Below the pieces are notes generated by a model. It had not been told where the DNA came from, ran no database searches, and saw nothing but the letters and a program-made list of their open reading frames with translations. The translations under genes were made by a program, and so were the position numbers. Shown here piece by piece: positions 5,685 through 64,000 of a stretch of 64,000 nucleotides of DNA; the first letter of the stretch is position 1, and every line of letters begins with the position of its first letter. Origin of the DNA: Ditylenchus dipsaci (Eukaryota > Nematoda > Chromadorea > Rhabditida > Anguinidae); assembly GCA_004194705.1 (NCBI GenBank), contig SADC01000269.1, forward strand, positions 1 to 64,000. Reading direction: 5' to 3'.

Positions 5685-5689
5685 TATTA

Positions 5690-38445: not shown

Positions 38446-41400
38446 CACAGTGTTTCAAAATTCGAATTTTAGTATGTTAGGAAAATTTGGCGCCAAATAA
38501 AAAAATGGCAAAATTTTCAAAAATGGTCGATTTCAGACTATTTTTATTTGTGTTTCTCATCGATTTTTTTTCTCTTTTGCCTTTGCATATTTATAGCCAG
38601 AATATTCCTTACACTAAGGGCTTTCGAATGAGCCATCACTTGCCTATAAAACATGCAAAATTTGAAAGCTATAATTGATTTCTGTGAAAATTTCCAAGAA
38701 TTTTTTTTCATCTAGTTGACTAGATTGAGATTCTAGCACTATTTTTTGTCGAGGTTTCCTGAAACGCAACTGGAGGCTTGATAGAGGAGTGAATTTGCTG
38801 CATTTTGGTACTAAGGACGTATACAAAAAATGCAAATTTCAGGTGTTTTATGCAAAAGTTAGATGGAAAACACAAAAACCCCTATTTTTACTCGGAAAAA
38901 TGCCACTTGTTTGCTTCAAGTGGTCTCTAGTTTCTAAAATAACATCATCACAAAATTCGGCTCAACTTTTCGAGTAGTTTAATGTATGAGCTACGTTTTG
39001 GTATATAAGTTGTACGTAAAACTCCGTGGTTTTGCACTTTTTTTCCGTCGTTTATGTTGTCCAACATTTTTTGTATTTTCAGGTGATTCAATGGTGCAGA
39101 CGAGACGTGCTACTGTGGTACGAAAAGAGCTAACAACAAAGAAACCTGTCACTCTGAGAACTGTGGAAGCAACAATGGCTGCTGTGGAAGCGAAGAGAGC
39201 AAGAAAAATCTCAAAGGAAATAGCTAGTTCCCGAGCAAAGGAAGCGACCAGAATACGTCTTTGTAAGCTGTTTTACCTTACTCTTTCGTAGTGGTTATAA
39301 GTCTTTTGTTTCAGCAAAACTGGCCAAAGGAAAAGCAAAGCAGTCAAAACACGCTCAAGATGATGTCGAAGCAAGGGCCCTTCTCTCAGCCAAGAGGAAG
39401 CAAGCAGCTGCAAGCAGGTGGAACAAGTCTAGTGCTAACAAGGATCAAAGAATCAAGGCTGTCGAAAAGACAAGTTTGTTGTTTTATTTACTGGCTGTTC
39501 GACGTTTATCTACGTAAATCTAAGTATCTTTTTTCAGCAAAAACTTTGCCAGTAAGAAAGAGCCAAAGCACTCAAGTTGACTTCAGCTCTCCAGTGATTG
39601 ATGAACTCCGGCATTCTTTGAAAATGAAGGATGATAAATACAGATGCCTTGAACAAAGGCTTACCAAGTCAGACAGGAAAAAAACTCAAACTGTAGGGCC
39701 TGTCACACAAATTTAATACTTTACGTAACTATTTAGTTGCCGCGTAAATCATTGCATGAAGTCAAAAGAAGTGCTTCCCTGCCAAGGATAAAAAAAATTG
39801 CGGAGCTTATTCTTGGGTCTAAGCGACAAACTCTGTCTTATGAAGAATTCCACCAAACGTCAGAGAGCGTGCGCCATGAACTTCACATCTTGTCACCAGA
39901 AAAGAAATCTAGTGAATCAGCAAAGCTTGCGCCTTTGGAGGATATCCGGCTTTGTATATCAATGTCAGGGAGGCAAAGAAGCCAACTGAAGTCAGAGCTT
40001 ATTAAGGTGAATAAAAAAGTTTTTTTATTAACATGCCTTTCACACTTGCGTACAGGTGAAAAAGGATATCTTCGCTCCTACCCATCAAGTTCGTCAACAT
40101 TTAGAGCAGATTTCGGCTGAGTTAGAACTTGAAAGTAGTATAAGCAACGGGAAGCAATTTACCTGGGTATCAAATGTCAAGATCATCCTTGAAAGAAGAT
40201 TAAGCCGATTGCATCAGTCAGGCAGCTTGGACTTTAGTGGACGATTCGGAGGCAATGTTTTCCTGTTCTTCGTAGCAGATAAAGGTGGAACAACTACCAA
40301 GTGTGCTATTGGAATCGGCAACGTGAAGCGTGCAAATTCCGCTGACAATTTGCTACTTATCTCTCTATTCGATGATAGTGATGATCATCAAAATTTGGAT
40401 AAGCTGAAGGACGTCCTTTTCAATCAATTACTATTTGAGTCAGTTCGTGTTGGCGGGGAAGAAAAGGCAGTCAAGTGGTATAACCTATTGGCACCGAAGT
40501 TTGTTAATTAATCCGTTTTGTCTTAGGTTTGCTACTGGAGACTTGAAAATTCTGAGCGCTCTGTACGGACATATGGGATCATCGTCTACATTCAGTTGCC
40601 TGTTATGCGAAGCACCCAAGAATTCATTCAAGGTTTTCATCAAATTTTCTAGGTAGTAAGAGTAAAAAAAAATTCAGGACAACAATATCTATCCAGCCAG
40701 AACTCTCTTCTCTATTGACCAAGGATTTTGTCGCTATCTTTACTTCTCCGATGCAGCTCTTAGTCGGAAGCGGACAGAACAGCTTGGCAAGAACAGTAAA
40801 TCTATATCAAAGCAGCCTATACTCAATGTACCAATTGCCCACATAGTGCCTCCATCGCTCCACATCGTCCAAGGGTTGGCTCAGAATACTGTAAATTTGA
40901 TGGAGGAAATGAATCCAGAGTTAGTTCCACAGTTGGAAATCGTGTACAGAAGCCTTGGAGCTGATAAGCAAAACTTCTATCAGACTTTTACAGGTGAGTA
41001 TTTGCAGGCTTCGAAATACATACTTACGATAATTCTAGGCAATCATATTCGAAAGCTTCTGACAGGTGAAGTCCATCAAAATCGCACGTATGTTGCCAGC
41101 TGGATTGATGCAGAGTGTTTTCTTCAAGCTGCTATCGCTACTAGGGAAATTCAGTCATATGCCAGAGCTTCATTTCTAGTTGAAGATGAAATCGATCACT
41201 TTGAAACCAAAACCAATCAGTTTTTTGAATGCATGAGGGTAGATTTTTTGTCAGAAAGTATGCTTATTTCATATTCTAAAATTTAGGAGAATTTCCACAG
41301 TCATCAGTATCTCCAAAAGGTCACTATTTGCGTTCACACGTAGGCAAATTTATGCGCCATCATGGATTTTGGGGACTTTTGTCAGAGCAGTCAATAGAAG

Positions 41401-41826
41401 CGTTGCACGCCAAAGTGAACAAGGATGAGAGAAGACTAGCCAGCCTCCGGAACCGGATAAAAATACAGAAAAAAATTGTTGAGAACTCTTATGTACGGAA
41501 TGTGTTAAATGATGGTATGGTAAGGTGTTTTGATGAAAATGTCAATCTAGAAGATTCAGATTTGTAATAAATCCTTCTTTTAACTCTTGAATTTGACTTT
41601 TTTGTGATGATTGCTTTCATTTGATACTGACCACGCAAAAAAGGTCACTTATATCAGGATTTGAAGATGTAACTGTATTGGGTTGGGTGTGATATTTCAC
41701 ACATTTGTCGGGAGTTTTCAATTTGATCCAAAAGAAACCAATAAATTCTGAAAAAGACTCTTTCAAAAATCTTGGCGTTTTGTCTAAAAATGAACCAAAT
41801 AGATTTTCGACTTTTGAAACACTGTG
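38446..41826 (+). mobile_element. DNA transposon with CACAGTG ends and intact-looking transposase
   Basis: The left end CACAGTGTTTCAAAA-TTCGAA matches the right end in reverse complement, CACAGTGTTTCAAAAGTCGAA. Subterminal gaaaatttggcgcc (left) and the inverse ggcgttttgtc/ttggcg (right) extend the inverted repeat weakly. Length 3381 bp. No target duplication is evident. About 640 nt of non-coding 5' sequence precede the transposase gene and are shared (38490-38960) with the element at 50744. CAC termini, and a 4-bp duplication on its relative, suggest the CMC (CACTA-Mirage-Chapaev) group, closest in style to Chapaev. That assignment is an inference from ends only. Confidence 0.75.
39091..41567 (+). 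CDS. DDE-like transposase, about nine exons, about 690 residues
   Basis: The start ATG lies 8 nt after a TATTTTCAG acceptor. Small introns include 39261-39314, 39471-39537, 39692-39736, 40007-40056, 40473-40525, 40633-40678 and 40996-41039. The N-terminus is basic and helical (KRKQAAASRWNKSSANKDQR). The likely catalytic triad is Asp in LFFVADKGGTTTK (near residue 325), Asp in FATGDLKILSALYGHMG (near 393) and Glu in GLLSEQSIEALHAK (near 635). A zinc-type block FSCLLCEAPK lies between the second Asp and a PPSLHIVQGL motif. The last exon joins best with a 29-nt intron (about 41258-41286) giving FPQSSVSPKGHYLRSH. No internal stop is needed with these joins, in contrast to every other transposase here. 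It could be active or recently active. Family not proven. Confidence 0.7.
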
Positions 41827-41829
41827 CCT

Positions 41830-42055
41830 CTACAGGCACGTTTCACAGAGCTAGAATGGTTTATAAAAACAGAACTTTCAGACCACTTAAGTTTGAAAAA
41901 ATCACCTCTCTCTAATTATAGACCCGGGTTTTTGATTAGAGAGAGTACGTGTAAGTGGTTAGGCACCTAGGCTGCAAACGTTAGCGCCTAATCAAACTTA
42001 AAATGAAGATTTCTGATGCTATATATGATGCCTAATATTATGGCATACCAATGTT
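41830..42055. other. No gene recognised
   Basis: Short spacer with a tctctctaattatagacc... pair near 41905-41955 that recalls a MITE end. Confidence 0.35.
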
Positions 42056-42059
42056 GTAA

Positions 42060-42790
42060 TTTTATATTTTAGTTGCTGATGGATACCGCCAGCGGGACAA
42101 AGAAGAACACGAAGAAGTATGCTTGAGAATCGACTGAACTCAGCTGAACGAATTGGAATCTCAACTGAAGACAGCATTCCGAAATGTTCGCTTGTGGGGC
42201 AGTAGCAATTGAGCATCGTCATCGGTGCACTAGCAAGGACTTTTCCTGCAGATCCGAAATGCTTTGGAATGCTCGGCCAGAAGTTGCAGCAGTACTAGCA
42301 AGTCAAACAGCTCGGTTTCCAACAACTATATGAATGCGAATGATGTCTTCTCGCTGCCCAAGATCTCTTATGCGGACAAGTCTACTCAGGTTTTTACATT
42401 TCTCTTACGATGTTCAATATATCTTTTTGCTAGTTTCAGTGTGGCGGCTGTGGCTGATGTGAATCCAGCGTTTGCAAGTTCAATGTTCTTCCATCCCTAT
42501 CGTCTCAAACCGAATCGGCAGATCAAGTGTATTCAATGCAGCAATACTTCCTCTTTTGGTGGACAGTGAGGGTGCCAATCATCCGGACCATTCTTCCAAA
42601 TCTCTTGTTCTGATATATTCCGTATGTGATTTAGGAAATAAACATTTGAGGGTTGTGGACCGAGACGCAGATGATCACCATATGATCTGTCGCTCTCAAT
42701 CTGGAAAGATCACCGTATTTTTTTCCTACTACCCCGCAATGCTGGAATACAGATGTATATCGAAAAAATCGAAATGCATCCAATAAAAGA
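42060..42790 (+). pseudogene. Unrecognised decayed gene with in-frame stops
   Basis: One frame reads like real protein through several stop codons: QRDKEEHEEVCLRID, stop, TQLNELESQLKTAFRNVRLW, GSSN, stop, ASSSVH, stop, QGLFLQIRNALECSARSCSS. After SYADKSTQ a 50-nt GTTTTT...TTTCAG intron leads to CGGCG, stop, CESSVCKFNV and QVYSMQQYFLFWWTVR. All stops are TGA or TAG, each one C-to-T change away from Arg or Gln codons. A following stretch encodes DLGNKHLRVVDRDADDH. I cannot name the protein. Confidence 0.45.
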
Positions 42791-42795
42791 TAAGA

Positions 42796-43171
42796 CAGTC
42801 GAACTGTTAGCTCACTGGGTCCGACACTTTTTTAGCTAGATTTTCAGAGCTTCTTTTAAATTCTGTTTTGTCCGGTCCCAAATATCGCAAGGATTCCAAT
42901 TTTACCAATCGTTTTGCAGAATCCAAAACTTTTTTTCTAAAAAAGCAAAACCTCGATTATTGGAACCCTACTTCTCAAATGGGTGCCCGTTTATCGAGGT
43001 TTTGCTTTTTCAGAGAAAAAAGTTTTTGAAAATAAAAAACGATCGGTAAAATCGAAATCCTTGCGGTATTTAAGATCGGACTGTCGAAACAGAATTTAAA
43101 AAAAGCTTTGAAAATCGAGCTAAAAAGTGTCGGATCCAGCGGGAGAATATGAGTTTATCAAGGTTCGACTG
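42796..43171. mobile_element. pogo/Tigger-like foldback MITE
   Basis: Ends CAGTCGAACTG and AAGGTTCGACTG, with TA on the right. Arms share ccgacac, gattccaattttaccaatc and aaaaagcaaaacctcgat with the copies at 553 and 60020. Confidence 0.8.
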
Positions 43172-43469
43172 TACTTTGAAATCATTGGAGCTTTGTTTGA
43201 CTTAAACTGAACACAAATTTAAGTTTTTAACCCTGTGTATTTCTGTTATTTAGAAAATATCAATTTGAAAATTTAATGTTAGAACCAATGATTGATTTGG
43301 ATGACACATTCACCTTTATTCATGCCTATTTTTTCTTAGAAGCTGTTAGCTTTGTTGTTGTTTTCAAATAAAAAGAATTTTCTTTTAAAAAACAGTTTTC
43401 CTTCCGTCTATTTTTATTTCGATCAAATTTTGTGTTTTTAAATATCTTACTAGTTGACAATATCAATAC

Positions 43470-43853
43470 TAGAGACAGAAACCGGGATTACCGGGATTTT
43501 GCATAAAATGCATTTTTGACCCACTTTTCAAGTAAAAGTGCTGACTAAAAATTTTAGGTCTGTATGCTACTTTTTATTCTCTATCGACTGGCTCTTTTAC
43601 TTTTTGCTTTTTATACGAAAATTTCGACCTCCGACCCTGAATCCCGGTATTGACAAACCGGGATCCGTTTCGTCAGTACCGGGATTCAAGGTCGGAGGTC
43701 GAAATTTTCGTATAAAAAGCAAAAAGTAAAAGAGCCAGTCGATAGAGGAAAAAAAGTAGCATATAGACCTAAATTTTTAGTCAGCACTTTCACTTGAAAA
43801 GTGGTCAAAAATGCGTTTTATGCAAAATCCCGGTAATCCCGGTTCTGTCTCTA
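43470..43853. mobile_element. hAT-like foldback MITE, 8-bp TSD
   Basis: Ends TAGAGACAGAA and TTCTGTCTCTA; arms of about 185 nt pair almost perfectly (cgaaaatttcgacctccga and inverse). The 8-bp duplication ATCAATAC lies at 43462-43469 and 43854-43861. An 8-bp duplication with a TAGAG-type end indicates hAT mobilisation. Confidence 0.9.
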
Positions 43854-43861
43854 ATCAATAC

Positions 43862-44300
43862 CATCCTGCTTAACTATTTTATGTTAGCAACGTTTTAAAA
43901 GTTATTAAAAAAAGTTTTTTTTAAATTTTGCCAAACTATGATAGCTAGTCTTTGCATTCTCAATATAAGATTTCTTTAATAATCAATGTACGATTTTATA
44001 TCAACAATTTTTTAATAAGTTGAAACAATTTTCAGTAATTCGAAGAAATTGTAGATCTAAGGAGTGGAATTGTTTTGACTAATTTTTTGAGCAAATTTTC
44101 ATGAATTTTGCGCAGAGTTATCACTCTAAAAGTTTTCTTTTAATTTTACCACTTTTTTAAATTCACCTAAAAATTACTTAAAGAAATTCTCAAAGAAGAA
44201 AAAAGAATCTCATAGAAAATCTCATAGAAATTATCGAAAAAATCAACAGAAGAACTAAGGCAAAAAAGCATCCTGATTCTACACTAGACCCAAAACTTTA
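43862..44300. other. No gene recognised
   Basis: AT-rich spacer with no repeat boundary or coding exon seen. Confidence 0.45.
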
Positions 44301-44308
44301 ATAGTGTA

Positions 44309-44521
44309 CCGTATTCATTTAATAGGCGGCCAGACGCCTTATTTTTGGATGTCTGAAAATTGGAAATTCGACATATTGAGTGGAAACCCAAAACCCAAAA
44401 AGCGTAATCGGTAGAGCCCAAAAGAGTTAAGAAGACGCAATAAATAGCTTGTCAGAATATTTATTCTGGGATAAGATGGGTCCTCAAAGTCGAGAGGGCC
44501 GCCTTATTAAAGGAAATACGG
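44309..44521. mobile_element. MITE, CCGTATTTCCTTTAATA family
   Basis: Ends CCGTATTCATTTAATAGGCGG and its inverse CCGCCTTATTAAAGGAAATACGG (18-nt core), flanked by TA. Confidence 0.8.
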
Positions 44522-44597
44522 TACGCTAAATTGAGGTGTATGTTAAATCGAGATCCAATGTAGTCAATTTAGCTGTAGTTTTTAAGGAAGTCACTCA

Positions 44598-44777
44598 CCG
44601 TATTTATTCTTATTGAGCACCAGTCTCTATTTGAACACCAGTCTTTATTAGAGCACCACCTCTTAGGGCCAAAATTAGTGGGTAGACTATGTTTTATTGA
44701 ATTTTTAACACGAAGTCGAAAATTTTTTTGGAGGTTGAAAAATATAGCACCATGGTGCTCTATTAGAACAAATACGG
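44598..44777. mobile_element. MITE, CCGTATTT family, upstream of the FYVE gene
   Basis: Ends CCGTATTTATTCTTATTGAG and CTCTATTAGAACAAATACGG; the flanks are CA and TG, not TA, so the site has mutated. It ends about 95 nt before the LST2 start. Confidence 0.7.
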
Positions 44778-44871
44778 TGTATACCGTTTTCTATTCACAA
44801 AGTCGCTTTTATTTATTTTGTTAATTTCGCAGAATTTTTTTTTTATCATATTATCAATTTCAGATTCACAG

Positions 44872-47060
44872 ATGCAACTTATCTTCAATTTTTTTAACTG
44901 GCCTAGAGCAGATCCTTCATCTCTTCTAGCCAAGTTTTTTTTCGCCAATGAAGAGCTAAAACTAGTGGTCAAGAAGCTTAATGCCATTGGAAGCATAGCC
45001 CATTCCCTCTTTGTGCCGAAATCGTAGAAGACTTTAAAAAAGCGCAAAAAAGAGTTATACAACTTGTAGCCAAAATCATGCTCATTTGCTTGCCTAATCC
45101 AGCTGAACGGGCTGATCGCTCCTACCGCCTTAAGTTAAAGCACAAAACTTTAGCCAAGAACTGTTTCCGGCCCAGATTTGGTTTTTGGCAGAGTGCTTAG
45201 CTGCAGGCAATGTGATAGGCAACCATCCAGCAGAATCAGCTGCTCTGCGACTACAAGCTCTGAAATTTCTTGACTCACTTAGAAGCTATTGGATGTATTG
45301 AGAAGTCAAGCACTGGTGGATCCAATGAATGTCAATACAGATTTGATTCGATGCTTTTTGAGAGCTTTTGACAACATTTTTGTGGAATTCGAACTCAAGT
45401 TTGTGGATATATTGATCATTTTCATGATTTTTTTGTAGAAACTCATAAATAGCCCCCCTTACATAAATAAATCCCTTTGGAAGGTTATATATGGAGTATT
45501 TTTAGTCTTAGGCTTCCGTAGGCCAGCGCCCGTCCGGACGGACTAGGGGGGGGGGTTTATTTATGACCCACAGTCATTTATTTAGTATCTTTAGCGTGGT
45601 CAGTCACTTGAAAAAGGTGAAAAGTGTGAAAGATATGAACGACAAACAAAACATAGCTGTGCTATTCTCTGAATCGATCATTAGGTTAGCATTACAAAAA
45701 AACCTTTTAAAACTATTAAACATTATTTCAGAGCTCAAAAGCTAAAATATTTACAGTGGAACAGATAGAGGCATGTGATCCAGCATTAATATTTGCTCTG
45801 CCTAGACTTTCTTTAACTTGGTAATTCCTGTTAAAAACCTTTTTCGCCTAATCCACTGAAAAAAAATGAACGTTTAAAATAACAAGCATGTTAAAAAATT
45901 GCAATATCCTTATTTCGATAATTTAGGGGTTGATTGACAACAAGGACATCAATAAGGCGCTGATCAACATTACTAGTGACAGCGAGGATCTTACAGAACT
46001 ATTTAGCAAATATCACAAACAGCTTATTCTTGTAAAACACATGCTACAATCACTCGACAAGAAGCAGTTGAAAAACTCGAAACTCGTTTGATCAGTGGAG
46101 ATTTGACAGATAAAGTGTATCAAATAGACAGAAAATTAAGTTGACAGGTGTCGTGAGCTTGATGAAATCGGCCATTTTACAGCAGAATAATGAATGTGCC
46201 AAAAAAAGAATGTAAGTTTATTTTTGTCAAGAGCTTAGTATATGAAATTATCCAAAGACTCCAAAAATCAACAATTTTTGCAGCTACAACTGCGAGAATA
46301 CATTTTCCTCTTAGAAACCAGACTATTTTTTACAAATTATTTTTGGATCAGGAGTAAAGAGAAAAATAACCTTTTAGTGACTTTAAAAATTTTGAAAATT
46401 TCAATTTGACTGGAAAATTTCGAAGTTCGCATGTTCTATTTTAACGTCATTTTGGTTTTTTTTATCTTTAAGAATATTCAGACTGAACCAATTTCCTGTC
46501 AATCAGCCAAAGAAGGATGAACTTGTTCAAGAGCTTTTTCTTTCAATTTGTGGAATAGCTGACAAATTGCACAGTGAACATCCATTTGAATTCAGCCACT
46601 TTATCAAAATTGCTCTCACCCTTCCTTCATCAGCTCCTGAATGTGAAGTTTTGAACACCACAGTTGCTCCTATGCTTTTGTCAACATCTTCAGCAACACC
46701 TCCTAGCAACACATATTACTCAACGCATCTTACATCTACTATTAATAGAACGGCCAGCGAGCTATTTTCCAAATGGAATGTATGAAGTGCTTCAAGTGTC
46801 AAATCAATTTTTGCCTTTTACGGCAAAAACATCGCTGCCACAACTGCAAAGATGTATTTTGCTCCACATGCTGTTCCAACAAAATGCTTTTGACAGAAAT
46901 GAACAGGCAAATAAAGGTGAGATTGTGTGATGAATGTTGCTCTGCTCCATCGGCATTCTACGAGAGACTAGTTTTTACACTGCTGCAGTTAACAGCTATG
47001 CAAGAAATTCTTATAGTGATGACACATTGTCTATATCAAGTACACCAAACTACTTTGTTA
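44872..47060 (+). CDS. lst-2: LST2/ZFYVE28-like FYVE-domain protein, frame breaks
   Basis: LST2 proteins bind PI3P membranes through a FYVE finger and dampen EGFR/LET-23 signalling at endosomes. The start ATG (44872) is 8 nt after TTTCAG: MQLIFNFFNWPRADPSSLLA, then KFFFANEELKLVV. Downstream blocks follow family order: IWFLAECLAAGNVIGN (45180-45230), ALVDPMNVNTDLIR...FVEFELKFVD, IAVLFSESIIR, CDPALIFALPRLSL, SEDLTELFSKYHKQLILVK, KLETRLISGDLTDK, then DELVQELFLSICGIADKL and the FYVE finger CMKCFKCQINFCLL, RQKHRCHNCKDVFC, VRLCDECC (46780-46955). At least four one-base frame changes occur, including one at the finger's first Cys (46770), where the copied fragment at 48056 keeps the frame. The usual R(R/K)HHCR pocket reads QKHRCH. 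So either decayed or affected by sequence errors. Confidence 0.85.
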
Positions 47061-47275
47061 ATCCATCATTCAATGGCTACAATGAAATATGAATTTTTGT
47101 AATTTTACTATTATGAAAAAATTTACAAAAAAAACTGACGTCTATGACACAAAAAATGTATTTCTTTATTTCATATACCAAAATTTAAATTTGAAAAGAA
47201 AAAGGATTAAAAGACGTATAGCCAGCACACTAGAGAACGCATGATTCATCCTTTCAGTCCTGAAGAGCACAAGGT

Positions 47276-47622
47276 TCAGAAAGCATGAAGTATGCTAAGA
47301 AAAGGGAACCTGCTAAGAATAACATGACCCTGGGATGTCACATCAGAGCTACTCCAAACTTTATCATCCGGGTGCTTCGTTTCCCAGTGGTACTTGAGCG
47401 TCGTAACAGTAACATTTTCGAGCTTGTAATCCTGATGAAAAAAAAATGTTGTTAGCCAAGGGCATGAAAAGTGTACCTTTTTGCAAGTTATACACCGAAG
47501 GTATGAGACATCGTTCTTCGATAATTTTTCGAATTTGCTCCAATCGGATGCACACGTTTTCTTTTCATGATTGGTGTCGTTGAATCGGCTGTTGAAGGGC
47601 TATTTTCGGCTGCCTGTGACAT
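47276..47622 (-). pseudogene. BED-type zinc finger fragment
   Basis: The start ATG at 47622 follows a TTTTAG acceptor by about 11 nt and encodes MSQAAENSPSTADSTTP. After a one-base shift the frame reads CASDWSKFEKLSK, then CITCKK, and across a roughly 43-nt GTACAC...CATCAG intron, VTTLKYHWETKHPDD. C-x2-C followed by H-x4-H with a W/F at the front is the BED finger found in hAT transposases and some chromatin proteins. It ends at 47276 after only about 110 residues, so it is a fragment. Confidence 0.5.
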
Positions 47623-47709
47623 CTCGATAATTACTAAAACATGATTCGGTCAAAAGAAGGTGAGAACAACTCAAAAACAAGCCATAAATGTCAACGTAAT
47701 AGAAGGACA

Positions 47710-47905
47710 ATTTTCAGTGAAAATTTCATTTTTCACTGAAAATTCTCGTTTTTCATTTGATGAAAATGAAAATTTTCATTTTCATTTTCCTCTTTCAAAA
47801 TGAAAATGAAAATGAAAATTTTTCATTCAATGAAAATGAAAATGAAAATTTCATTTTCATTCAAATTTCACTGAAATTTTCATTTTTCATCGTGTTTTCA
47901 TTTTC
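47710..47905. repeat. gaaaatgaaaatttcatttt simple sequence
   Basis: Self-complementary runs of gaaaat and attttc over about 200 nt. The Phe/Asn/Glu-rich open frame is an artefact. Confidence 0.75.
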
Positions 47906-47988
47906 ATTTTGGAAACACTGGAATCTACGTAGATTCTATATCAGAACTAAGGTTTTTTGTATCACAAATGTATTTGATTCAGTAGCTA

Positions 47989-48402
47989 CCGTATTTCCTC
48001 TAATAGGCCGTCCCCTTCTAATAATCGCCTCCTCAACTTTAGGAACCTATATCTCGGCGAGCTATTTTCCAAATGGAAATGTATGAAGTGCTTCAAGTGT
48101 CAAATCAATTTTTGCCTTTTACGGCAAAAACATCGCTGCCACAACTGCAAAGATGTATTTTACTCCACATGCTGTTCCAACAAAATGCTTTTGACAGAAA
48201 TTAATAGGCAAATAAAGGTGAGATTGTGTAATGAATGTTGATCTGGGGCATTGAAAATATTTTGCAAAGCTGTTGATTGAGTTTTCTTAACTTTCGCGAG
48301 CTCTAGCGATTGCACTTTTTGGATTTTAGTTAAGCAGAAAATCTTTAAAATTTTCAGATTTTTGAGGGTTTGAAAAATAATACGGCCTATTAAAGGAAAC
48401 GG
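47989..48402. mobile_element. MITE carrying a captured FYVE exon
   Basis: Ends CCGTATTTCCTCTAATAGG and CCTATTAAAGGAAACGG, flanked by TA (47987-47988 and 48403-48404). The left inner part (cctcaactttaggaacctat, atctcgg) and right inner part (ttttcttaactttcgcgagc, atttttgagggtttgaaaa) match family members without insert, such as 63743-63971 (ctcgactttaagct, tatctcgg, cacgagctct). Between them lies 48056-48246, almost identical to part of the LST2 gene 1.3 kb upstream. Confidence 0.8.
48056..48246 (+). pseudogene. Captured copy of the LST2 FYVE exon
   Basis: Matches 46754-46943 with only a handful of substitutions over about 190 nt. It keeps one extra A (aaatggaaatgtatg against aaatggaatgtatg), which restores an uninterrupted KWKCMKCFKCQINF...CNEC frame that the main gene lacks. 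No start, promoter or other exons, so it is not expected to function alone. Confidence 0.85.
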
Positions 48403-48409
48403 TAATTTT

Positions 48410-48795
48410 ATAGTTTAAGGTGAAGTTCTTAATATAGCGGTAAAAATATATTGCTGTTATTTACCGGAAAATTATAGGTAATTCAATGATTAATTACCAA
48501 TCAACCTGTCAAACTGTCCGAATGTCAAAATTACAGTTTATTTCATTAATCACTGTCATTTAGCAGTGATTAAAAATATGAGATATGATCAGCAATTCTT
48601 TATTTGTTTTTAGACCGGTGACATATCAAAATTTGTTTTACAATTGTTTTTCCATAAATAAAGGATGGATTGACAACATAGTATGAAACAAGTAAAATGT
48701 TTTTTCAAGAACATTGTTTTGGAAAAATTTTGTAAAAGAGTTTTAAACATATTTTACTTGTTGAAATTTTAATTTTCTTTAGCAGCAACAGCTCC
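48410..48795. other. No gene recognised
   Basis: AT-rich spacer with ttaccaatcaacctgtc and weak inverse patches. Confidence 0.4.
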
Positions 48796-48799
48796 AAGA

Positions 48800-49355
48800 A
48801 TTTTGCTAACGTCCACTTTGCCCTTGAGTTGATCACAAGGGATCTGGGGCATTTTTAGTTGTTCCACTATAGCAGGTCAGCCTGGGAGGTTAGCTGGTGA
48901 ACTTGGTTGCACACTTCGATAGTACTCAAACCTGGGTTTTGCATTATTCTCTGAATTGAGGTAATTTTATTTGCGGTTTTAACACACTTAACCACCTTTA
49001 TTTGGTCAAGCAACTTGAGGCCATTGTCGTCTAAGTTGGCTGCAGCTTTGGCAAAGCTGCTTCAATTGCTTGTTTCTTGTCATCAGCCAGTTTCTGGATG
49101 CCAGCCTTGACATTAATTTGAATATTATTACTGGAGTACCACCAACCTGAACTTCAGAAGGTAGTCCAGCAGTCAATTCTTTCAACTTGGCCTCTTTGGC
49201 TGCCTTAGAATAGAAAAGTCAGAGAAAGTAGTCATAATTTGCTGTTTTGTATCTTGGGAAACATTATCCAAAAAGCTCAAGTCAGGCGGGCTTAATTGAG
49301 CATTCACCAAAAATACAACTAGAATGTCACTGGGTAAGGTAATAAAGCGAAACAT
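48800..49355 (-). pseudogene. Small secreted helical protein, possibly SXP/RAL-2-like, frame breaks
   Basis: The start at 49355 encodes MFRFITLPSDILVVFLVNAQ, a plausible signal peptide. LSPPDLSFLDNVSQDTKQQI follows, then, after frame changes, KAAKEAKLKELTAGLPSEVQ, VKAGIQKLADDKKQAIEAAL and KLLDQIKVVKCVKTANKIT. The small Lys/Ala-rich helical secreted layout with 'PP..L' after the signal recalls nematode SXP/RAL-2 (DUF148) proteins. The resemblance is by style only. A TATA box at 49390-49397 lies 35-42 nt upstream, so the 5' UTR would be short. At least two frame changes are needed. Confidence 0.35.
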
Positions 49356-49389
49356 TTTTTGTTTGGTTTAATCTGCTCTTGAGACCGCT

Positions 49390-49397
49390 CTTTTATA
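49390..49397 (-). promoter_or_regulatory. TATA box
   Basis: TATAAAAG on the minus strand (in gtaTATAAAAGagcgg context), 35 nt before the ATG at 49355. Spacing predicts transcription starting within about 10 nt of the ATG. Confidence 0.5.
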
Positions 49398-49399
49398 CT

Positions 49400-50533
49400 T
49401 ATAACTTTACTCATAAAAATTTATTTTATTTGATGTGGTATGACTAATATCTGCCCCTACTCAAGCATAGTTAACTAAACTAACTGTATGGATGTCACTG
49501 ATATGTGATCATAAAGCAATAAAAGGTTGATCAGGATCTCTGATATTTGTAGTGAGAGCAAGATAAAATAAAAATAAATTGCAGCATAATTGTGTTCTCT
49601 AACATTATTAAAATAAAGTTTTGGTTTTCGTGTTTTTTCGTAACTAAAAAACCTTGCCTTGCTAAATTGCCTCCGAAATAAGTTAACTTGAAGAGGCATT
49701 TAAAGGGAGAGTGTATCTTCTTTCCGTATCTGTTCCCGCATGGAAATTGCTTTAAATTAGATTAAACCACATTCTAAGGTTGCTGGTTCGAATCCCTGTA
49801 AGTGTAAACTTTATTTTTTCATATTTTATTTGCTAGTTTGATACAAAAAATCGTCAAGGTCTTTTTAACTGATTCCACGACCATTATAGCTAAGCTACAG
49901 CCAAAACCAAGAATAGAAATTTAAAGCGATCTTCGTCCAATTTTTTTTAAATCAAGCTATCCATGCTACCTAATTTCTGAAGTAATTTTTGATGTACGAC
50001 AGTACTCTATCTTTTCGTCTTTCTCTTTTTAATACAATTTTTTTTATGTGCTACTTCGCGCATTTCTGAGTCTGGAAATGGCCATAATTCTTCAAAAAGT
50101 AATAAAATAGCTAGAGGCAATACATGTTTTCTGGCTGGTTTCGCAAGTATAGGACAGACATTAAATCATTGAAAAAATGTGGACAAAATAAAGTTGACAC
50201 CCAGAGGGATTCGAACCAGCAACCTCTAAATGAAGTTTATTTGAATTTTAACGATTTCCATGTGGGACCAGATACGGAAAGAGGATACACCCCGTTTAAA
50301 TATTTAAAAAAAGGTGTTGAAACTGTAAAGAGGGTGTCGCTTTGTCTGTTGAATGAATAAACTTTGTTAGTTTTAATGTCTTCATCTAAGATTTATCTCT
50401 CATGTCTTTTACTTCTCAAGCCTCCTAATCTTTAATTGTACCTAATATTTCTAATTCACGATTATATCAAGACTGTCTTTTTATTTATTTTGTTGTTATT
50501 TTTGACATCATTAAAAAAAATTATTTTATCAAG
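49400..50533. other. No gene; tRNA T-arm-like scraps
   Basis: AT-rich. B-box-like strings gctggttcgaatccc (49780) and gggattcgaaccagc (50205) recur here without a matching A box. The open frame at 50124-50360 shows no known domain. Confidence 0.4.
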
Positions 50534-50743
50534 CTTTCTTTGGGTGTACCGAAGAATTTAAAAAAATATTTGCTAAACGGCACATTTGCTAAAAAAACTT
50601 TGCTAAAAAAAATTTTGCTAAAGACATATTTGCTAAAGTCACATTTGCTAAAATTTCTTTTGCTAAAGTCACATTTGCTAAATTTTTTTTTGCTAAAGGC
50701 AATTTGCTAATGAAATTTTTTGGTAAAGGCCTTTCTGGTCCCT

Positions 50744-52770
50744 CACGGCCCTCAAAAACTGCATTCTAGTGCATTAGCGAAATTTGGCGCCAAATCAAAA
50801 ATTTTGAAAAACCGCTGTTTTTTAGTTTATTTTATCCAGCACTTCTGGTTTTACTTTTTTTGCTGTACCTCATGTAAGTTTATTGTCAAAAAACTCACCA
50901 CATTCAGCGCTTTCGAACAAGCCATCACTTGCCCATAAACATGCAAAATTTCGAAGCTATAATTGATTTCTGTGAAAATTTCAAAGAAATTTTTTTCATC
51001 TAGTTGACTCGATTGAGATTCTAGCACTATTTTATGTCGAGTTTTCCTGAAACGCAACTGGAGGCTCGATAGAGGAGTAAATTTGCTGCATTTGGTACCA
51101 AAGACGTATACAAAAAATGCAAATTTTAGGTGTTTTATGCAAAAGTTAAATGGAAAACGAGAAAACCCCTATTTTTACTCGGAAAAATGCCAGTTGTTTC
51201 ACTCTTTTGGTCTGAGATTTCTGAAAAATGGCCTTTAAGGATTTTTTATAGTTTGTCGTGGGACTTTATTTGTTGCGCTATCTTTTAATGCATGAAGCGC
51301 TAGAAAAAATGCGAATTTTGAGTTTTTTATGCGAGACAAAGATTTATGTTTCAGGTCTAGCAATGGTCAATACCCGAAAAATGCAAAAAGATGCTGAAGA
51401 GCAGCCGATATTCGGGAAATTTCAAGCTCTGGCATGCAAGCGATGGTCTAAAAGTCAAACATGAAGCAAATTGAAGTACAGAAGAGAAAAGCAGCAAGTG
51501 CAAAAGCAAGAGAAGTGTGGGAACTTCGTCATCGTAAGCTGTTTCATATGGCTGTACCTGATATTTTGAAAGAGCTTTCGTTTTAGTGAAGCAAGCTGAT
51601 AAGCAACAGCTGGAGGCTAAATCAAGAGAAGAACTTTCAGCCAAGAGGCAGAATGCAGTCACAGTAAGATGGAACAGGTTAAGATCCAGAAAAGAACAAA
51701 GAGTAAAAGCTGAATGAAGCAAGAATGGACCATGACTGAGTTGGACAAAGGATCTGTAAGTAATTTTCTACCAAATACTGTTTCGTTTGGTTGAAAAACT
51801 TTAGTTGAATTGTAGAGATGCCAATCTTCCGTTGAAAATTGATGCGCTCAACTGCTCCAATCTGATCAACGTCTCGCCAATCATTCAGTCGATCGTTTTT
51901 CTGCTTCTTTGGTGGTCGTGCTTCGAGTCATCGTAAGGGAATAAGGCTGAAGTGGAGGCTGAAGTTGCCCATATGGTAAGTGATAAGCTCTTTTATAGTA
52001 TAGTCGACGCTTAGATTAACTGCAACCCAAGGGATCGTCCTTGGGGGATGTTAATCTAGAGACTCATTAATTCAAATGGCTTCTGAACTAACTTTTTCAG
52101 CTAGGTGAATTTATGAAGAGTGATCCTGGTTTTCTGAAGTTGCGCAAGATCAGTGCAGTCCAGAAGATAGCCAAGACTGTGTCATCCGCCTCTTCTAATC
52201 AGGTTCCCTTCCGTCGGATGTCCTGATGTAAGTTTTGTTTCTGTGGATTACCATTTTTTGTTGTGTACCAATCTTATTTAGGCTCAACATCGCCGATAAT
52301 GACTATTTGGATATCTTCAATAGTAAGGATGCAAAGAAGCGTTGTTGAAGAAGGATAATATTCCAGGAAAATGTTGTAAATGAATCTGATGTTGCGTTAT
52401 ATCGTACATTTACTTTTGAGTTTCCGCAAAATAAATGTATTTTGGTACCATTGCATGAATCTGGTGTTTTAGGATAGTTGCAAGGGCATAGTTGTGCTGT
52501 GTTTTTTGATCTAATTTTTGTTGACCATTCGTTTTTTCTGGTATTTTCATAGTTTTCGTAAATCTAGCAAAACATGATTTCAGTACTGTCAAACCATCAT
52601 CAGAATGCTTGAATTAGTCCAGAAAACAAGTTTTAGAATTTTCGTCAAAATTTGCATATCGTAGTCAATAAACACTGAAAATTATAGAAAATATGGGAAA
52701 ATGTCTTTCAAAAATCTTGGCGTTTTGTTTATTTTTAAATGCACTAGAATGCAGTTTTTGAGGGGCCGTG
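50744..52770 (+). mobile_element. Decayed relative of the 38.4-kb transposon, 4-bp TSD
   Basis: The left end CACGGCCCTCAAAAACTGC and right end (reverse complement) CACGGCCCCTCAAAAACTGC match over about 32 nt. The flanks repeat CCCT at 50740-50743 and 52771-52774. Subterminal gaaatttggcgccaaat and 50900-51240 match 38490-38960. At 2027 bp it lacks most of the transposase. CAC ends with a 4-bp duplication fit Chapaev-type elements. Confidence 0.8.
51361..52350 (+). pseudogene. Remnant of the CAC-ended transposon's transposase N-terminus
   Basis: ATG at 51364 follows TTTCAG by about 8 nt, as in the copy at 39091. Readable pieces include KQIEVQKRKAASAKAREVWE and, after an intron, REELSAKRQNAVTVRWNRLR, parallel to LSAKRKQAAASRWNKSSANK in the intact copy. 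Frames are broken, and no DKGG, GDLK or SEQS motif is present. Confidence 0.6.
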
Positions 52771-52954
52771 CCCTTTGTGTCACAAATATGACCGTAGGGT
52801 GTTTAGGAAATGCAGGTACTTGGAACCGAACCTGTGACCAAGTCAAACGCTTGTCTTTCTATATCTAAAATATGGTAAAAAAAGGTATGCGCCCAGGTGG
52901 ATTCGAACCAGCAACCTCTATATCAACCCTCAGGATCGCTAAGAACTTCATCCA

Positions 52955-53235
52955 GTGTGACCAAACAAAGTGGTCGTCCCCTTGGATCGAATTTTTTTTT
53001 CGCGTTTTCGAGTTCTAAAACGATTTTTCTGCACTAATTCGACCATGCTGAAGATGGTTTGACACTGGTAAAATTACGTTTTATCGAGAAATTTTTGAGT
53101 TATGGTAAGTTCTTGATTTATCAAAATCAATTACTCACGATAACTCAAAATTTTTTTTTGATAAAACGTGATTTTACAACTGTCAAACCATCTTCAGCAT
53201 GGTCAAATTAGTGCAGAAAAATTGTTTGAAATCCG
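52955..53235. mobile_element. Palindromic MITE (aagtggtcgtccccttgg copy)
   Basis: Left arm with tggtcgtccccttgg and gaccatgctgaagatgg; right arm with accatcttcagcatggtc. The centre is tgatttatcaaaatcaa. A partial tRNA-like module (52875-52950) abuts its left end. Confidence 0.7.
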
Positions 53236-53261
53236 AAAATGCGAAAAAAAAATTTGGTGCG

Positions 53262-54390
53262 TTATCGTTTCGTCCTTTTTTCAAATGAAAAAAAGGACGA
53301 AACGTTCGTGCTTTTTTTTCATTCTAAGATTGCCTTGGTACCCCCTGTTGTTTTTTTTGCAAAATTTTCAGATTGTGTCTGAAGCACCCCAAACCACCTA
53401 AAACACCCAAAACACCCCAAACCACCCAAAACACCCAAAACCACCCAAATTCACCAAAACTACCCGAATTCACCCAAACTACCCAAACACTTCGAGCCAC
53501 GGGAAACCCCAGGTGTTGGTACTCAGGTAATGGTCCTCAGGCAGCTCAAGGTAGCTCTTCCTGGGTGGTGCTACTTCGGTGGTGGTACTCATGTAGTGGT
53601 ATCCTGGGTCGTTAATCGAATTGATCCACACCGAATCGGCTCACACACGAATCGGTCTACACTTTTCAAATTCGTGCATTTCGAAAAATTTTGCGGGGCT
53701 TAATTTTTCAGTCTCAACCAACCAAACCAAGTGGTCGACCACTTGGATCAAAAAAAATTTTACGTTTTTCATATTCCAAAACCTGTTTTTTGGACTGATT
53801 CGGGCCGCTGAAGATGGTTTGATAGTGGTAAAATGCCGTTTTCTCGGTATTTTTTGAGTATTGGGCAATAATTGGTTTTACCAAAATCAATTATTGCCCA
53901 AAACTCAAAAAATACCCGAGAAAACGGCATTTTACCACTATCAAACCATCTTCAACGGGCCCGAATCAGTCCAGAAATCAGGTTTTGGAATATGAAAAAC
54001 GTAAAAAAAATTTGATCCAAGTGGACGACCACTTGGTTACATTGATTCAGACTGAAAAATTTCAATTCCCGCAAAACTTTTATTTGGAGTAGTTTTGGAT
54101 GGTTTAGGGTGGTTTGGTTGGCTTTGGGTGTGTTGGGTGCTTTTGGCCATTTTTGGATGTTTGGGTGGCTTGAGGTGTTTTGAGTGGTTTGGGGTGGTTC
54201 GGACACAATCTAAAATTTTCTAAAAAACAACAGGGGGGACCAAGGCAATCATTAAATGAAAATATTCTTAAATAAAAAAACAACAGGGGGGACCAAGGCA
54301 ATCATTAAATGAAAATATTCTTAAATAAAAAAAAACAACAGGGGGACCAAGGCAATCTTAGAATGAAAAAAAGGACGAAACGTCCCTTTA
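53262..54390. mobile_element. Foldback with accacccaaaacaccc arms
   Basis: The outer arms share tttcgtcctttttttc, attctaagattgccttgg and ccccctgttgtttt in inverse order. They are followed inward by accacccaaaacacccc repeats on the left (53385-53495) and ggggtggtttgg/gtgttggg on the right (54090-54230). A 54-nt block with caacaggggggaccaagg is triplicated at 54225-54360. The palindromic MITE at 53690-54085 lies in the centre. Confidence 0.7.
53690..54085. mobile_element. Best-preserved palindromic MITE copy
   Basis: Two arms of about 190 nt pair nearly perfectly from attttgcgggg/cccgcaaaact inward through tttttcagtct, aagtggtcgaccacttgg, ctgattcgggcc and gaagatggtttgatagtgg to a centre of attggttttaccaaaatcaat with essentially no spacer. 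Confidence 0.85.
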
Positions 54391-54411
54391 CCAAAATTTT
54401 GATCCACTTGG

Positions 54412-54630
54412 TTTTACCTGGTCACCTGGATGAAGTTCTGAGCGATTCTAAGGCTTGATGTAGACGTTGATGGTTCGAATCCACATGGGCGCATACCTTA
54501 TTTTTTATTATAATTTTGAGTGTTTGAGTAGCGTAGAGGTCCACATACTCATTATCAAGGTTGCTGGATCAAACCCTCTGGGTGCAATCAGTCCCTAGTA
54601 GAGGACCTCGATTCATGGTCCTGGGGTTTT
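54412..54630 (+). repeat. Dimeric tRNA-like SINE, plus orientation
   Basis: Inverse-orientation copy of 35930-36146: ggtcacctggatgaagttc, gatggttcgaatccacatgg, linker ttattataattttgagtg, A-box-like gtagcgtagagg, B-box-like gctggatcaaaccc, tail cctcgattcatggtcctgg. Confidence 0.65.
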
Positions 54631-55287
54631 CTCGAAGTGGTTTCAGCAGTTTGGGATGGTATGAGGTAAATCATGGATGGCCTAAAAAATTTGGGATGAT
54701 TCAGACGCAATTTGAAAAATTTCGAAAAAAAACTTAAACATTTACAAAACCACCCAAAACTTGAAGAAAAAGGTAAAAAGAGGAAAAAAGTTGAAATGAT
54801 AGTGTCTTTGACGCAATAAGAACCACAAAACCGCGTTAACAAAAGAAATTTTAGTAAATATGCCTTTAGCAAAAAATTTTTTAGCAAATGTGACTTTAGC
54901 AAAAGAAATTTTAGCAAATGTGCCTTTAGCAAAAAAATTTTTTAGCAAAAAGTTTTTTTAGCAAATGTGCCGTTTAGCAAATATTTTTTTAAATTCTTCG
55001 GTACACCCCTTTCTTTATCATATTTTTTTTACGGTTATCTACAATTATCAATACTTGATGTTTGACATTGAAGCTCACACTTATAAAAGTTGATTATTTT
55101 CAAGTAAATAAACAGAACTTCTTTTGATTTTTCGTTGCGAATTTCACAATCTATTTCTTCAAAATTTATTGTTTCAGCAATCGAAAATTCGGCCTTGCAG
55201 TTTATCCAACATGTTTCTTTAGTATCACAGAAAGCCTAAATATGCATGCATTTAAAGTTTAAAGTAACTTTGCACAGGGCTCTCATC

Positions 55288-55801
55288 CAGTGTTTTCATA
55301 ATTCACACTGACAGTGACACTGACATTGACACTGACATGTCAGTTTAGCAAACTGACATTTTTTAACAGTGGTCGTAGACATGAAAAAACTTGTCTTTCG
55401 AAATTCTGTAAAGTGCGTTAGAAAGCTGACGAAATTCTGATTGAGAAAGGTGTTATCACATTTTCGACCTACCTATGAAAAAAGCCGAAAAAATAAGTGT
55501 CAGTTTCATTTTAATGTCAGTTTAGTAAAAAAATGTCAGTGTCAGTTTAGACTTTTTTTACTAAACTGACATTAAAAATGAAACTGACACTTATTTTTTC
55601 CGGCTTTTTTCATAGGTGGGTCGAAAATGTGATAACACCTTTCTCAATCAGAATTTCGTCAGCTTTCTAACGCACTTTACAGAATTTCGAAAAGACAAGT
55701 TTTTTCATGTCTACGACCACTGTTAAAAAATGTCAGTTTGCTAAACTGACATGTCAGTGTCAATGTCAGTGTCACTGTCAGTGTGAATTATGAAAACACT
55801 G
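55288..55801. mobile_element. hAT-like foldback MITE, 8-bp TSD
   Basis: Ends CAGTGTTTTCATAATTC and GAATTATGAAAACACTG. CTCTCATC is duplicated at 55280-55287 and 55802-55809. The two arms of about 250 nt are almost perfect inverses with a small centre (gtcagtttagactttttttac), including the gacagtgacactgacattg repeats. CAGTG ends with an 8-bp duplication are typical of hAT elements. Confidence 0.92.
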
Positions 55802-55809
55802 CTCTCATC

Positions 55810-56505
55810 TGTACTTTATTTCCAATTTGAACTTTTTCGGGATTCTAAATTGAAGTTATATGTCAAAATCTTTATTTTAAATTTCAACAAGCACTGGACA
55901 AAATATCACTTTTTGATGGGAAATGAACAAATTCTTCTTTGTTTGACCAATGTACTTTATTTCAAAATTTTAAGATAAGATTTCTTCTTTTACCCCAAAA
56001 AACTTTAGGGGTTTAATGAGGGATCAAACTTAAAATTCTGCCGCTAATGCATTTTCGGTCATCAACAGCGTGAATTGTGGGAATTATTTTAGAACTTACG
56101 TTTTTATCGGTACCCTAGTGCACTTTATCAAATACAAAAATGAGGCCAGTAAGCAGGGTTTTATTTCGAGTATAAGGTTGTTTATGACCTTGATTTTGAC
56201 TAAAGCCTCGAAAATTCTATACAATTCTGGTCTCAAGTGAAAAACAAATATTTGCAGGCTGGCGCGAATTCGTCGAACTACTTGTTCGGCTCACAACTTT
56301 TTCACTTTTCAATCATTCTAAGAGATTTTTCGCAATCGATAAAGGGGAAACTAAGATTTTTTATATTTCAACAAGACCTTTTTTATTTTTTAAAGAGGCA
56401 TACGAGTGCGTTTCAGTGGCGATTTCAAATTCGCAAAAGGCAGTTATGCTTAAACGAGAATTATTTCGAAATACAAATTTGCCATTTTATATAAAAAGGT
56501 AAGTG
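55810..56505. other. No gene recognised
   Basis: AT-rich. A plus-strand frame at 56237-56494 is preceded by tttgcag but has no recognisable domain. Confidence 0.4.
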
Positions 56506-56511
56506 ACGTGT

Positions 56512-56580
56512 TGTAACCGAATTCGACCACGTTCGGTCAACGTCAGCAGGTTACCACTGAGCTACGTGACTTATTACGCT
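56512..56580 (-). repeat. tRNA-like sequence, probably not functional
   Basis: The minus strand has gtcacgtagctcagtggtaac, a strong A box (TAGCTCAGTGGT), and B-box-like ggtcgaattcggt. Acceptor halves gtcacgt and acgtcac pair with one mismatch. The anticodon stem acgtt/aacgt closes only a 5-nt loop, where a tRNA needs 7, so I read it as a pseudogene or SINE head. Confidence 0.5.
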
Positions 56581-56589
56581 CACATAACG

Positions 56590-58230
56590 TTTTTCATTAC
56601 TTATTGGTCTTAGCAAAATGAGAGAATTGAATTTAAAAATAATTCTCGTTTGAATATAACTGGTCCCCACCTTTTGCGGAATTGAAATTGCCATTGTAAC
56701 GCGCTAGTATGCCCCTTTGATAAATGTTTTAGACCTGTTAAAATTAAAATTAAACTGCGGACAGTCATTTTTGACATGGAATGCATGGTTCATCGAAGAA
56801 GGTTCAAAGCATTCTTGCATTTGCGTCTAAATTCTTTCGCTATTCGAATTGAATATTCTTCAGCAAATATACTTTCCATACTGTCCATACCATATCCACC
56901 CATCCAAATGACTGTCCACACTTGTTGTTGAATAGAATATTCTGCCCTTTTTGATCCGAAAATGAGTGAAAGTTGAACAGGTCAAAAAACATTGATTGAA
57001 AAAACAACAAAAGTCATGTTTGAGATTAATAAATTGCCTAATGTTTCCTCTATGAAATTTTAAAGAAGACTTGTCGGATGGTTTAAAAATAAAAAGATAT
57101 AAGCAGAACAAATAATTCAACGAATTCGAGACACCCTGTGAATAAAGAACATCTCAAAGATTTTGTTAAATCTATTTTCTAAAATTCATTAAACTATGAC
57201 CGATACCATTTTTTCTACAAAAAATTATGCAATTACTTTTCAGGTTTAAAAAAGTGAGATAATCGATACCGGGAAAATTTTTGTTTTACTTCTCAGAAGT
57301 ATGATGGTATATTTAAGGCAGTCTGAGGTCATTTTCGGTGATTTATTTACTCTTTAAGCTTTTTTACTTTTTCAAGAAAAGGTTAAGTATGGGTAGGTCA
57401 AAATATGTTAGGAACGACTAAAACATGTTTTTTGAAGTTTTGAAAAATAACACAGACATGTTTGAGTCCGTCGCCGTCTTAAATTACGCTGTTCTACCCT
57501 TGCCTTATCCTAAAAACATCACAGAGTGATCAAGTTAAGTAGGCGGTGGCAACCAACGACACTAGTACCCACAGAAATCACACATTTGCAGCGGCAACTC
57601 AGGCATTTTCTGTATGAAAAAGGGCCTAACAAGTAAGGATAAGCAAAAAAAAACGACAAGGGGGCGAAGACAGATAGAAGGATGAGACTAAAGGCAATTG
57701 AGTCAATTTTTTTTTAGCATTTTTGTCACTTTTATTCTTCTAATGAAACCACTGCTGGAAATATTTATTTTTCAATCCCCCAAAATTGATAGAATTTTGA
57801 GTGAGTCTCGACATTTTTAGGTGTCTAAGCAAAATCGAACAATTCGAAATCCTTAGAACTCGTGGCAGTTAAGAAAACACAGTAGACGAAAAATTCTTTT
57901 TGCTTTAACAGATAAAGAGATCTTTAAAGCCCAGGTAAAGGCTCTATTAGAAGAAAAAACCTATATCCCAGAGCAAATAAAAAAAATTCGCAACTCTGTT
58001 TTTGCGTTTTCTTAACTTCAGGAACTTTACCGATTCCACTTTTTATATTCATTTTATATTTACACCTGAAAATCTCGAGATCGATCTCTGATTTTGCCTC
58101 TTGTTGAGGGTTCGAAAAAAGTATTAGCGCTGGTTAATTGATAGACAAAATACGGTATGAGAAAACTTTAGTGCAAACAACCTCTTTAAGGAGACGAACA
58201 CAGTCTTGCAATTGTTGGTATGTCTCTAAC
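56590..58230. other. No gene recognised
   Basis: AT-rich; 58080-58160 carries one MITE end (gacaaaatacggta). No splice-bounded coding exon was seen. Confidence 0.4.
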
Positions 58231-58237
58231 GAGATTT

Positions 58238-59114: not shown

Positions 59115-59119
59115 TTCGT

Positions 59120-60010: not shown

Positions 60011-60019
60011 ACACTTAAA

Positions 60020-61340: not shown

Positions 61341-61697
61341 GAACAATACGTTTCCATTTTTCGCCTTGGTCCCCCCTGTTGTTTTTTATTAAAAACAGCT
61401 TGGTCCCCCTGTTGTTTCAATGGTAATACTGATTAAGGTGATTATGTTAACTATAATCACCATGACTACCATAATCTTGTTTTGTTTAGGACTTTATATG
61501 TTGGATCACTTTGCTATATTTTCCGACCAACCTGACAAATAATATTTTACAGGGTGGACAAAGTATTCCAGCATATTCGAGAGACCTGTAACTATTTTTA
61601 AGACTCTGGCAAAACAAGTCATGGCTCATTTGTTAGCTCTGAATTTGCGGTTTTGTTTGACATCAAAATAGATATTTTATTATACTTGAGTGTTTGG

Positions 61698-62315: not shown

Positions 62316-62319
62316 CCGT

Positions 62320-63270: not shown

Positions 63271-63284
63271 TTCAGACGAAAAAA

Positions 63285-63541: not shown

Positions 63542-63742
63542 GTGAATTTTTTACTGAACAATCTACTTATTAATAAGCTTTATTGGCATAGCAAGGAAAT
63601 ATTCGCGAACTTTTTTTTGAGTATAAAACTTTAAGGACCCAAATTGAGAAAATAACATTTTTGGCCTGACATTGACATTTACAGACGTTTGCGGAATCCA
63701 CATAATAATCCATAAAAATAATATCAAGAGTAGACTGTATTA

Positions 63743-63971: not shown

Positions 63972-64000
63972 TATATGGTTTTAATGTAGATTCCGCGAAT

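Follow-up and report, generated by a model that had tools for sequence, protein, structure and literature searches.

A MITE in the genome of Ditylenchus dipsaci contains a copied piece of the FYVE exon of a neighbouring predicted LST2-like gene, and we consider it highly probable that DNA repair in place, and not transposition, produced this chimera, a single-copy Pack-TIR. The element lies in a stretch of 64,000 nucleotides of contig SADC01000269.1 (C268 in our numbering), referred to here as the window. An earlier sequence-only reading of the window had described a TA-flanked MITE that carries a copy of part of the FYVE exon next to it; this is confirmed, and the boundaries of the element are exact. 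The analysis adds to that reading the duplication of the locus on its contig, the left junction in the second copy, a 13-nt match at the right junction, deletions in the donor exon, and a Cys-to-Tyr change in the captured piece. Chimeras of this type are a known kind of animal-genome repair scar and the mechanism is not new. The value of this one lies in the base-level anatomy of one nematode gap-filling event, with donor, acceptor, junctions, a possible second template and a bound on age. It also indicates that an old MITE beside a gene can gain exon sequence without moving, which may mislead annotation and claims of gene capture.

Structure of the interrupted element

The element is 414 bp long, and its TA flanks and inverted ends (CCGTATT...AAACGG) were read directly from the sequence. 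Compared with the family consensus the right end is 2 nt short, and both ends are still present. The parts of the element, its donor and the duplicated locus in which it lies are given in Table 1, where copy A is the locus inside the window and copy B its counterpart further along the same contig; the corresponding FYVE exons are called exon A and exon B. The approximately 350 bp that follow the element in copy A (48405-48755) have no other match in the genome and are missing from copy B.

Table 1. Positions, in window coordinates, of the element, its parts and the related sequences.
Feature	Position	Strand	Basis
Left TA target-site duplication	47987-47988	.	sequence
Right TA target-site duplication	48403-48404	.	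sequence
MITE with internal insert	47989-48402	+	inverted ends and family membership
MITE left part, ending TATCTCGGC	47989-48058	+	93% to C1338:71846-71916; also in copy B
GC microhomology common to MITE and exon, left junction	48057-48058	.	sequence comparison
Net insert, 194 nt in place of 5 nt (CTACA)	48059-48252	+	alignment with 30 family members
Copy of FYVE exon segment	48057-48240	+ (donor's orientation)	179/184 columns identical to exon A; Pfam FYVE
13-nt stretch, possible second templated piece	48240-48252	+	exact match to 48841-48853
MITE right part, from GAAAATATTTTGC	48253-48402	+	78-83% to family (best matches); alignment
Donor segment, FYVE exon of LST2-like gene (copy A)	46757-46939	+	alignment, Pfam, PDB
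Candidate second template, 13 nt	48841-48853	+	sequence identity
Locus copy A	41827-61276	+	contig self-comparison; copy B at C268:108182-127075, outside the window

The captured FYVE segment and its donor

The sequence-only reading had set 48056-48246 against 46754-46943, and BLASTN aligns 48057-48245 with 46757-46944 at 96.8% identity over 189 columns (E 1e-86). Within the unambiguous stretch (48057-48240), the five columns that differ from exon A comprise 4 substitutions and one single-base indel, and 177 of the 184 columns are identical to exon B. The Pfam FYVE domain is recognised in exon A (frame starting at 46749, E 1e-9), in exon B (E 4.9e-9) and in the captured copy (48056-48238, E 5.4e-8). 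By sequence, the PDB entry most similar to exon B is 9f43_G, a Lateral signaling target protein 2 homolog (E 8.1e-9), and by these matches the donor is the FYVE exon of a putative LST2-like gene. Donor exon and MITE insert are about 1.3 kb apart on the same contig, and the sequence on either side of the donor (46657-46756 and 46940-47039) can likewise be aligned to exon B and its frame. The insert of 194 nt, set against the 183 nt of exon A that it covers, falls inside the 80-120% length range used to define Pack-TIRs. The captured piece lies wholly within one exon, so that loss of an intron could not show.

Private changes in the 184 columns number 4 substitutions in the captured copy, 3 in exon B and one deletion in exon A. 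Three of the four substitutions private to the captured copy alter the protein, and one of the four turns a FYVE cysteine, which we take to be a zinc-binding residue, into tyrosine. The captured frame (86 aa) has no stop from a point upstream of the FYVE part until a TGA at the right junction. A search of a large protein collection, limited to proteins of about 47-150 aa, returned none sharing enough words with this frame. The product of the captured copy would most likely be inert.

Exon A itself carries two 1-bp deletions relative to exon B, by which its frame is broken (46757-46990 compared with C268:117265-117500, in L009). The 226-aa translation of exon B has a single match at E <= 0.001 among 206 candidates, the Ditylenchus dipsaci protein A0A915DN86, which is 96% identical to exon A in an alignment of 105 residues and terminates, with ...SKWNV, at the exon A frame break. 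Since A0A915DN86 stops at the first exon A deletion, that gene model has no FYVE domain. The D. dipsaci genome was assembled from PacBio data, merged and scaffolded, and no short-read base correction is named in its description (PMC6929663), so the two deletions may be sequence errors. We see only a slight chance that the LST2 gene of copy A has truly lost its FYVE frame by a 1-bp deletion and that the MITE-borne copy is spliced to it as a substitute last exon; if this were true, a repair scar would have turned into a working gene part.

The two junctions

At the left junction the MITE (...CTCGGC) and the exon (...CAGCGAG) both contain GC, a microhomology of 2 bp. The full pattern of this junction (27 nt, with at most 3 mismatches) has one occurrence in the genome.

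At the right junction the exon copy is certain as far as 48240. The 13-mer GATCTGGGGCATT (48240-48252) is identical to 48841-48853, and the match extends on neither side; the 13-mer occurs twice in the window, the second time about 0.6 kb downstream. Copy B, the sole locus usable for polarising among the loci compared, has one difference in its version of the 13-mer. When 14,650 complexity-filtered 13-mers were sampled outside the big tandem array, an isolated exact match was present for 114 of 14,650 within 700 bp and for 148 of 14,650 within 1,600 bp (about 0.8-1.1%), and the 13-nt stretch was probably copied from 48841-48853 as a second template. Without the filter, tandem arrays and repeats enter the count and a match is found for 754 to 927 of 8572 13-mers (9-11%, and 10-12% when the 13-mers are complex); by this background of 9-12% in a repeat-rich window, the match could also have arisen by chance. 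Alternatively, the right junction consists of one substitution and 7 nt of filler.

The MITE family in the genome

The assembly searched comprises 226,978,389 bases in 1359 contigs. The family consists of elements of about 247 bp, with 3882 first-look candidates, 40 of which were scored. None of 30 aligned members has an insertion between the equivalents of TATCTCGGC and GAAAATATTTTGC, these being the best-scoring members, a choice that disfavours interrupted copies; one of them (L048) has a deletion just after this position. A 28-nt pattern of the unbroken junction, allowing at most 3 mismatches, has 99 occurrences (58 forward, 41 reverse), and its reversed control has 0. The sequence-only reading had pointed out that its case would fail if family elements already contained the FYVE sequence. 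FYVE as normal family content is ruled out by the 30 of 30 members and the 99 unbroken junctions that lack it.

The gap at the insert site amounts to 5 of about 247 nt, and the breakpoint is at 72 of 247. Over 226 columns the two halves of the MITE share 89.4% identity with the family consensus, and the captured piece is 97% identical to its donor, a comparison that allows rough dating since the consensus is biased to the best-scoring members and mixes subfamilies. Of the 31 rows aligned, 17 are flanked by TA at either end; the present element is out of register there, its own TA/TA having been read directly.

A survey less biased by score was made with the left half of the MITE, for which 40 of 157 candidates were scored. 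These 40 places include the present element, copy B, 11 with the unbroken junction, 13 that were fetched and 14 that were left unexamined. Ten of the 13 fetched places align across the junction position, and three diverge from the family ahead of the junction, at 46-48 of 247. Among the former ten, L078, L079 and L082 contain about 10-30 extra bases at some position. No second interrupted case was seen among the examined places of the 40 scored out of 157 candidates. FYVE DNA was found in three places among the best 40 of 1173 candidates, all on C268: exon A, the element, and exon B (117265-117453). Further chimeric copies, for which the sequence-only reading had proposed a search, were detected neither by the junction pattern genome-wide nor by the FYVE search among the best 40 of 1173 candidates, so dispersed copies of the chimera were not found within this scope.

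The family displays the traits of MITEs, being short (about 247 bp), non-coding, bounded by inverted ends and high in copy number. No obvious transposase with the same ends appeared in the ORF listing of three 3.5-kb stretches. The designation 'mariner-type' given by the sequence-only reading has only the TA target site and the inverted ends as its basis, no matching transposase having been found in this limited look. Two longer sequences, L091:49-1194 (1146 bp) and L092:37-878 (842 bp), have the same inverted ends and different interiors, and no ORF of at least 110 aa lies wholly inside either. A tandem-repeat ORF of 7 units in L091 (2456-3364) falls outside the element.

A second copy of the locus and the relative age of the capture

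Contig self-comparison indicates that the locus, at least 19 kb long, recurs about 70 kb away, with main blocks at 92-98% and many indels, and contig C268 ends inside copy B. At the left edge of the duplicated locus, 40032-41600 has a nearly identical copy at C965:38297-39869 and shorter relatives elsewhere; this recent repeat could have misled the assembly at the locus edge. A search with 61400-63400 for the continuation of copy B recovered the window and otherwise just a repeat, at query positions 444-870. The haploid size of D. dipsaci by flow cytometry is 160-170 Mb, and the assembly amounts to 227.2 Mb in 1,394 scaffolds (PMC6929663). As the assembly exceeds the flow-cytometry size, copies A and B may be two haplotypes joined by mistake, or else the result of a genuine duplication.

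The left part of the MITE and its flank in copy B agree with copy A in 128 of 131 columns, and the differences are single-base gaps. Copy B continues through the chimeric junction, reading TATCTCGGC and then GAGCTAT, before passing into sequence also found on C1016. In the short stretch past the junction, exons A and B differ at a single base, and there the MITE remnant of copy B agrees with exon A and with the captured copy. With seven bases beyond the junction in agreement, the copy B junction is unlikely to have arisen independently. Since both locus copies carry the left junction, the capture most likely took place before the two copies separated, and copy B would later have lost the rest. 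Copy B is without the right half and therefore replicates the left junction only. Taken together, the sequences fit an order in which the MITE would have landed and decayed, been broken and patched, and only then have been carried along as A and B diverged. The point at which copy B leaves the MITE remnant for the sequence shared with C1016 is in L009:5884-6239 (C268:117883-118238), and relatives there have, by eye, a tRNA-like look just outside it.

Origin of the chimera

The donor, the acceptor, both junctions and the size of the lost piece are read from the sequence, and the left junction is without another match in the assembly. The proposed course of events would begin with an old, non-autonomous, TA-flanked MITE that sat downstream of the LST2-like gene. 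A break or a stalled fork may have arisen inside it, between TATCTCGGC and GAAAATATT, with the loss of 5 nt. The left end would then have paired via GC with the FYVE exon upstream, from which about 184 nt would have been copied; synthesis would next probably have moved to the site about 0.6 kb downstream and added 13 nt from it, after which the end would have been joined to the right part of the MITE. We infer the initial break, the sequence of template switches and the enzymes responsible. We also infer that the patching took place in situ, after insertion, and repair in place is favoured by the unbroken family junction, the small gap, the local donor, the microhomology, the single copy, the left junction in copy B, the 13-nt match downstream and the older MITE halves, as well as by the likeness to traits reported for single-copy animal Pack-TIRs (PMC8277862). 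The sequence-only reading had already suggested local template copying or gap repair, which is also the best mechanism here.

A course that depends on transposition, in which the MITE was excised and the gap abortively repaired with LST2 sequence, or in which the chimera formed first and was then inserted, appears improbable to us. It would agree with both inverted ends and with TA on both sides, and a local donor is likewise expected for excision repair; however, the loss amounts to just 5 nt, at 72 of 247, and is not a large terminal-biased one, a second chimeric copy was not found, and the halves of the element look older than the captured piece. The sequence-only statement that a MITE 'has captured' the exon is right as to the exon piece inside and overstates the role of the element, as transposition is not needed and a moved copy was not found. 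Mis-assembly that pasted the exon into the MITE deserves consideration in a draft PacBio assembly that was merged and scaffolded and exceeds the flow-cytometry size (PMC6929663), with the locus twice on one contig and a nearly identical repeat at its left edge. We hold this to be very unlikely, because the 4 private substitutions of the captured copy relative to both exons show that it is not a pasted duplicate of either, and because the left junction is independently present in copy B.

Even less probable is an active gene-shuffling element like plant Pack-TYPE, or a working exon, with the chimera being used or spreading. The captured frame, open up to its TGA, still scores as FYVE, but the chimera is single-copy, three of its four private substitutions change the protein, one of them at a FYVE cysteine, and no protein was matched to the 86-aa frame in the large collection, searchable for about 47-150 aa. 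An ordinary tandem or segmental duplication that happened to include a MITE is the least credible of these explanations. The wider locus is indeed duplicated, but the large duplication copies the whole arrangement, and the similarity between 46757-46939 and 48057-48240 starts and stops inside the MITE. Continuation of the similarity past the MITE borders, which the sequence-only reading would have taken as a sign of tandem duplication, is absent on both sides, and ordinary tandem duplication is refuted by the junctions. Capture by a Helitron is expected to leave neither inverted ends nor a target-site duplication, and the element has both.

Comparison with known systems

Repair in place accords with what has been reported for animal Pack-TIRs by Tan et al. 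2021 (PMC8277862), who describe 370 of them in 100 animal genomes (55 species with them), 115 being TcMariner; against these figures the sequence-only remark that gene capture by animal MITEs of this class is rarely documented is outdated. Nearly all are single-copy, and the single-copy ones are attributed there to transposition-independent gap filling. Among 281 cases, 160 lie no more than 15 kb from the parent, the majority of them within 5 kb, and 190 have microhomology at one or both breakpoints (median 2 bp); the gap has a median of 4.6% of the element, breakpoints are skewed inward, and copies are at a median of 18.3% from the consensus. The corresponding values here are a donor at 1.3 kb, 2 bp, a gap of 2%, a breakpoint at about 0.29 and an element about 11% from its consensus. 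The element resembles the reported single-copy cases in its inverted ends round a non-TE piece, its nearby parent, its 2-bp microhomology, its age, its single copy and its small internal gap; TcMariner (115 of 370) is among their commonest superfamilies. It differs in its nematode host (the study covers 19 invertebrates, and the word 'nematode' is absent from its main text), in the possible second template on the right, and in a second locus copy that shares one junction.

Pack-TIRs are defined in that study by at least 10 bp of TE end on both flanks, non-TE sequence inside, a parent of at least 90% identity and a length of 80-120%, and further by the lack of a TE within 100 bp of the parental copy and by not being a retro-copy (PMC8277862). 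In the present case TE ends of at least 10 bp are present on both sides and the non-TE piece is identical to its parent in 179 of 184 columns. As in the single-copy subclass, no transposed chimera was seen, the junction pattern occurring once and the FYVE search covering the best 40 of 1173 candidates. Among the publication titles listed, none describes this locus, which is no proof of its absence from print.

Transduplication in a nematode DNA transposon has been described for Turmoil-1 of C. elegans (PMC2572040), which likewise contains host coding pieces. Turmoil-1 is a Harbinger element with the pieces within its inverted repeats and has several copies, whereas the chimera here is one copy with the piece in the MITE interior. 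Plant Pack-TYPE elements, including Pack-Mariner, are also non-autonomous TIR elements with gene DNA; they acquire their DNA when adjacent insertions fuse and are mobilised again, and they occur in clusters, in contrast to the present element, for which no spread was seen (PMC8903248). Polymerase theta end joining in C. elegans resembles the proposed repair in the copying of nearby DNA with minimal homology and in template switching, but its inserts are mostly shorter than 25 bp and mostly come from within 20 bp of the break (PMC5068794, PMC8654963). For 184 nt from more than 1 kb away, gap-repair synthesis or fork switching fits better.

Other repeats in the window

The same inverted ends are found elsewhere in the window at 5075-5235, 5444-5686 and 63741-63973, and the element at 63741 has weak matches to both halves of the interrupted MITE. 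A fragment at 8685-9308 has a match to the transposase domain DDE_Tnp_1_7 (E 1.8e-10). The ORF list places long, tandemly repeated reading frames, in several frames, at 24830-28041, where they form a large tandem array.
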